DNA from: Candidatus Gracilibacteria bacterium CG12_big_fil_rev_8_21_14_0_65_38_15
Lineage (GTDB): Bacteria > Patescibacteriota > Gracilibacteria > BD1-5 > UBA2023
Direction of reading: 5' to 3'
Assembly (NCBI GenBank): GCA_002771035.1
Contig: PCUR01000003.1
Coordinates: 1-46,819 of the forward strand
Length of the DNA stretch: 46,819 bases
The notes under the pieces were generated by a model, which saw only the letters and a list, made by a program, of their open reading frames with translations, did no database searches and was not told the origin of the DNA. This document shows positions 41,443 to 41,655 of the stretch, in pieces. The stretch's first letter is position 1. Each line of letters starts with the position of its first letter. The position numbers were made by a program, and so were the translations under genes.

Positions 41443-41470
41443 TTGCCAAAAACACAATTCTCCCTATACT
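41443..41470 (+). promoter_or_regulatory. Promoter of the structured leader RNA
   Basis: TTGCCA (41443-41448), 16-nt spacer, TATACT (41465-41470); predicted start near 41477. Shares 21 identical nt with the promoter at 39800. Confidence 0.65.
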
Positions 41471-41475
41471 GCTTC

Positions 41476-41655
41476 GTGTAACAAAGGCATTTGAGCGACT
41501 ATCAATCGCGAGCCGAGAGTAGAAATCCGCCACGGCGGACAGTAGACCTCTCCGGGAGTTCCCGTCATAGAACACAAATTAAGTACCCGCTTTCCGGTGG
41601 TACCTTTCGCCTCGGCGAACCGAAAGCATCCATATTTTATAATGGGTGCTTTTTT
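41476..41655 (+). promoter_or_regulatory. Structured leader RNA with T-box-like antiterminator and terminator
   Basis: About 180 nt without a coding frame, from a promoter to an intrinsic terminator. 5' part: closing GTGT/ACAC (41476-79 with 41572-75), a kink-turn-like hairpin (GGC, tandem GA, GCGA/TCGC), a hairpin GAGAG...CTCTC with TCCGCC/GGCGGA, and CGGG-AGTT-CCCG. 3' part: helix GCTTTCCGG (41589-41597)/CCGAAAGC (41620-41627), a 5'-side bulge TGGTACC (41598-41604), and helix TTCGC-CTCG-GCGAA. The terminator AAAGCATCCAT/ATGGGTGCTTT plus T-run shares 41623-41627 with the first helix, so the two exclude each other. The bulge equals the T-box UGGNACC; a canonical T-box stem I is not seen. Could also be an independent ncRNA. 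Confidence 0.55.

Follow-up and report, generated by a model that had tools for sequence, protein, structure and literature searches.

We analysed a 46,819-nt stretch of DNA (the window) from an uncultured Candidatus Gracilibacteria bacterium, in which UGA encodes Gly (genetic code 25), and focused on a leader on the plus strand at positions 41443-41655. When UGA is read as Gly, ileS is the fourth open reading frame (ORF) after this leader, confirming the gene order proposed in an earlier note made from the letters of this DNA. We conclude with high confidence that the leader is a T-box riboswitch that responds to tRNA-Ile by transcription attenuation and has an ultrashort Stem I. This conclusion is based on the architecture of the leader, covariation among its homologues, the match between specifier codon and downstream gene, the match between the variable base of the UGGN sequence and the tRNA discriminator base, and the enrichment of terminators. 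The features of the locus, all on the plus strand, are the following.

41443-41470, plus: sigma-70-like promoter TTGCCA-16-TATACT, with 10 of 12 consensus matches and kept in close relatives
41486-41514, plus: ultrashort Stem I of 29 nt, GGC-AUUU-GA-GCGA-[CUAUCAA]-UCGC-GA-GCC, kink-turn-like with tandem G.A
41501-41503, plus: specifier codon AUC (Ile) in the Stem I apical loop, predicted to pair with the tRNA-Ile anticodon GAU
41515-41552, plus: Stem II with S-turn (loop E), GAA (41522-41524) opposite GUAGA (41542-41546)
41553-41573, plus: Stem IIA/B pseudoknot, CGG/CCG (41553-41555/41562-41564) and GUUC/GAAC (41558-41561/41570-41573)
41576-41588, plus: conserved linker AAAUUAAGUA at the position of Stem III and too short for a Stem III
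41589-41627, plus: antiterminator, helices A1 and A2
41598-41604, plus: 7-nt T-box bulge UGGUACC, whose UGGU is predicted to pair with the tRNA-Ile 3' ACCA
41623-41655, plus: intrinsic terminator, AAAGCAUCCAU/AUGGGUGCUUU followed by a U-run; its 5' arm AAAGC (41623-41627) is common to the 3' arm of A1
41659-41907, plus: ORF for a small membrane protein, operon gene 1 (start codon uncertain; no Pfam match)
41933-42556, plus: alpha/beta serine hydrolase (PF06821)
42578-42856, plus: 92-aa ORF, function not assigned
42892-46716, plus: ileS, isoleucyl-tRNA synthetase (UGA = Gly), the inferred target of the T-box

The promoter, the hairpins, the helix-bulge-helix with UGGUACC and the terminator with a shared arm that had been described before are all present, and the leader folds more stably than its dinucleotide shuffles (z = -2.1; 5 of 200 shuffles were equally good). 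The 5' part had been regarded as a multi-hairpin junction unlike known Stem I. The hairpins are indeed there; the fold, however, is not an unknown one: it corresponds to the ultrashort Stem I known from Class III T-boxes, followed by an S-turn Stem II and a IIA/B pseudoknot. A kink-turn at the base of Stem I is suggested by the sequence, which has a bulge and tandem G.A, and A14 and A31 are nearly or fully invariant. We note that in the minimum free energy fold calculated without tRNA, GUACC pairs with GGUAC of the T-box bulge (41583-41603), which would mask the bulge. We considered such an AAGUACC/GGUACC sequestering hairpin, seen in this fold of the window and possible in ileS-type copies, as a feature of the family and rejected it because aspS copies with UGGCACC cannot form the full pairing.

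An Rfam scan of 41300-41800 gave no T-box match even at E <= 10, and none of 59 relatives passed the RF00230 gathering cut-off (93 bits). The first homologues came from BLAST of relatives, and a covariance model, R1, was built from homologues. R1 matched 67 of the 77 order-level genomes, 107 of 353 class-level genomes and 114 of 380 genomes sampled across the phylum. In an alignment of 18 sequences, scored with the pseudoknot included against a structure that had been drawn on one member sequence, 82% of cells were paired and covariation was 0.453, compared to at most 48.5% and 0.155 in slid controls. Covariation reached 0.66 in 100 sequences and 0.70 in 30 more distant ones, with 91% of cells paired and slid controls not above 0.13; because these two alignments were fitted to R1, their figures lean toward the model, a bias that the 18-sequence alignment does not have. 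Lack of covariation in the UGGNACC helix had been named in advance as an observation that would speak against a T-box; this helix does covary in the homologues, and for the structure as a whole the values were 0.45-0.70, with at most 0.16 in slid controls. Among individual elements, Stem I helices 1 and 2 were paired in 99% and 98% of cells and showed compensatory changes, both pseudoknot helices had compensatory changes (helices 6-8, 18-sequence alignment), and the S-turn signature AGAA[AC]...TAGA was present in 140 of 147 homologues. Judged by pairing, the apical loop was 7 nt long in 104 of 147 and 5-6 nt in 8 of 147. A second short-stem T-box copy, with an AAC specifier and UGGCACC, lies in the same genome (L031, G000:C52:20277-20421) upstream of an HD-domain-like ORF and aspS.

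If the apical triplet is a specifier, it should correspond to the regulated gene. Reading the codon at a constant position in loops of 6-7 nt and independently assigning the downstream aminoacyl-tRNA synthetase (aaRS) gene by tblastn, we found agreement in 100 of 101 unambiguous cases (AUC-ileS, 64; AAC-aspS, 31; GAC-aspS, 4; GUC-valS, 1), the sole exception being a misaligned weak match; at nine further loci, no aaRS was present within the stretch examined. In the remaining valS leaders, the loops are longer and likewise include GUC. NCBIfam confirmed the identity of ten proteins from the phylum-level set: five are valine--tRNA ligases whose leaders have a GUC hairpin, one is the product of a valS gene whose leader has two candidates, and four are aspartate--tRNA(Asn) ligases, which fits the AAC codon; in the genome of the window, no asparaginyl-tRNA synthetase scored over the cut-off. 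In the valS leader with two candidates (L229), tandem hairpins, counted from 293 at the start of the R1 match, read GCAAAG-CUGUCA-CUUUGC (GUC) and GCCC-AUCAAC-GGGC (AUC), possibly representing a dual or decayed specifier. The variable base of UGGN also followed the gene: 87 ileS leaders have U and one has C; of the 33 scorable aspS leaders, 31 have C and two have U. The host tRNAs have the ends that UGGN pairing requires, i.e. tRNA-Ile(GAU) ends in A-CCA (A73) and tRNA-Asn(GUU) in G-CCA (G73). The suggestion of a divergent tRNA-sensing T-box is thus borne out on both sides, with codon and UGGN base tracking the downstream aaRS and the host anticodons and discriminator bases being those predicted.

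Because ileS is separated from the leader by three ORFs in this genome, we considered that the T-box might act on the first gene or genes alone, coding for the membrane protein and the hydrolase, with ileS downstream by chance. The genes between leader and ileS vary among close relatives while ileS is constant, and in many distant genomes ileS comes directly first after the leader; accordingly, we regard control of the first genes only as very unlikely. The genes found between leader and ileS are those for the membrane protein and hydrolase in the window (41659-42856), an HAD-like hydrolase gene in one close relative (L003) and a methyltransferase-like gene in another (L002).

With respect to the mode of control, a strong GC-containing hairpin and UUUUUU precede the first start codon in the window, and antiterminator and terminator are mutually exclusive via AAAGC. 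Scanning for terminators after the copies identified 60 of 77 at the level of the order, 14 of 40 at the level of the class and 16 of 30 at the level of the phylum; shuffle controls gave 2 of 231, 2 of 120 and 1 of 90, respectively. The scan therefore leaves some class- and phylum-level copies without a terminator, as would be expected if the element were a translational Class III T-box like those in Actinobacteria, with the 3' hairpin serving as a sequestrator and the U-run being incidental. Against this possibility, the hairpin and its U-run precede the first start codon, the antiterminator overlaps with the 5' arm of the hairpin, and most order-level copies keep the terminator; we consider translational control even less probable than control of the first genes only. 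Least probable of all is a small-ligand or protein riboswitch that merely resembles a T-box. The absence of an Rfam T-box match and of a canonical Stem I would agree with it, and the earlier note had kept ligand sensing as an alternative; yet codon and UGGN change together with the downstream aaRS and the discriminator base, for which reason we reject it, and the S-turn and the pseudoknot correspond to those of Class III. We also discarded a canonical Class I T-box masked by poor folding, since a long Stem I would not fit into the leader and Rfam gave no score.

Three observations weigh against a tRNA-Ile-responsive attenuator upstream of ileS, or at least complicate it. First, pairing in the outer part of A1 is incomplete in many of the homologues (73% of cells paired in helix 7). 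Second, Stem III is absent from the window, in which only 5 nt separate AAG from helix A1; the spacing from AAG to UGGN is 10-14 nt in 56 of 71 scorable order-level copies, indicating that Stem III is usually lacking, and an insertion seen in some relatives could represent Stem III. Third, three ORFs separate the terminator from ileS, so that ileS may also have a promoter of its own. A main doubt is whether ileS is driven from this promoter only.

From these data, we infer tRNA binding, sensing of aminoacylation and the termination switch itself. In the fold predicted without tRNA, the terminator is favoured by ~6 kcal/mol (-26.6 kcal/mol compared to -20.8 kcal/mol with the antiterminator forced); therefore, the element should be off by default and on with uncharged tRNA-Ile. 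In our working model, when isoleucine is short, the anticodon of uncharged tRNA-Ile(GAU) would pair with the apical-loop AUC of the kink-turn-like Stem I, the Stem II S-turn would clamp the codon-anticodon helix, and the IIA/B pseudoknot would keep Stem I and Stem II in position. The free ACCA end would then pair with UGGU in the bulge and stabilise the antiterminator, thereby blocking the terminator and allowing RNA polymerase to enter the ileS-containing operon. A charged tRNA could not occupy the bulge, in which case the terminator would form and the operon would be off.

Two further observations concern the host. In the IleS protein encoded at 42892-46716, a histidine phosphatase domain (PF00300, residues 732-908, E 1.3e-38) is inserted between the catalytic and anticodon-binding domains. 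Moreover, a tRNA at 22948-23026 with the anticodon UCA, labelled SeC by ARAGORN, is probably a tRNA-Gly reading UGA in this code-25 organism.

A third T-box is present in the same genomes: sub-threshold RF00230 hits turned out to be glyS leaders with UGGAACC. These leaders have a short Stem I without an S-turn Stem II and the loop GUUGGAA, with GGC in one case, and the host tRNA-Gly genes carry U73. A model built for them, R2, matched 54 of 76 genomes of the order, with glyS downstream where this could be checked on the plus strand. The copy in the host genome (L199, G000:C31:13776-13979, minus strand) has a UGGAACC bulge and GGA in a short apical loop.

According to reviews, transcriptional T-boxes generally need a long Stem I with the interdigitated double T-loop motif (IDTM) for fast tRNA capture, while forms with a short Stem I are mostly translational and largely actinobacterial (PMC7583486, PMC10482949). 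Judging from the sequences, what appears to be new here is transcriptional control without an elbow-binding IDTM Stem I, the usual lack of Stem III, specificities beyond Ile and the spread across the phylum. A literature search on T-boxes in Gracilibacteria, Patescibacteria, Parcubacteria and the Candidate Phyla Radiation found nothing relevant; subscription papers were outside this search, so that priority is not certain. On balance, we favour the idea that Patescibacteria have phylum-wide, Rfam-invisible T-boxes that control transcription without IDTM and usually without Stem III for Ile, Asn, Asp and Val, and that these, together with the glyS version, which also lacks an S-turn Stem II, form a separate minimal class with its own mode of fast tRNA capture and charge sensing. 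The many short-stem T-boxes joined to terminators make the kinetic capture argument directly testable, and they add a natural case without Stem III. They also add a control of tRNA charging to the little that is known about regulation in Patescibacteria, and the covariance model recovers elements missed by standard annotation.

Compared to Class I transcriptional T-boxes (RF00230, e.g. B. subtilis tyrS), the element likewise has an antiterminator with a UGGNACC bulge that competes with an intrinsic terminator, as well as an S-turn Stem II and a IIA/B pseudoknot, but lacks the long Stem I, the contact of IDTM with the tRNA elbow and the internal-loop specifier, and is missed by the RF00230 model. 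The Class II glycine T-box of B. subtilis glyQS resembles the Gracilibacteria glyS leaders in having no S-turn Stem II, a UGGA bulge and a terminator; in contrast to it, the latter have a short Stem I whose apical loop carries GGA/GGC, and a long IDTM stem would not fit. The TBDB class II model was searched in Actinobacteria and on class I hits with truncated Stem I (PMC7778990). The four-class scheme places T-boxes with a short Stem I and an apical-loop specifier in Class III, which mostly regulates translation (PMC10482949). With the Class III ileS T-boxes of Nocardia farcinica and Mycobacterium tuberculosis, the element has in common the short Stem I without IDTM, the apical-loop specifier, the S-turn Stem II, the IIA/B pseudoknot, the UGGN bulge and ileS as the regulated gene. 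In the N. farcinica ileS leader, A16-U17-C18 form the codon, the S-turn contains the purines A38-A39 and A69-G70-A71, and G37 and G67 lie next to these (PMC7583486); in the window, numbered from 41481, the codon occupies residues 21-23 and G42-A43-A44 faces G62-U63-A64-G65-A66. The distance from codon to S-turn is thus 20 nt in both (C18 to A38 and C23 to A43, respectively), a comparison that rests on residue numbers from papers rather than on direct sequence comparison because actinobacterial-type leaders were sought in Acidimicrobiia IleS loci and none was found. Stem III has been described as indispensable for the discriminator in the T-boxes studied (PMC7583486). The Gracilibacteria-type group differs from Class III in usually lacking Stem III, in serving Asn, Asp and Val besides Ile, in its occurrence in Patescibacteria, in an apical loop of mostly 7 nt rather than a penta- or hexanucleotide (PMC10482949), and in having an intrinsic terminator before the first start codon as opposed to translational control.
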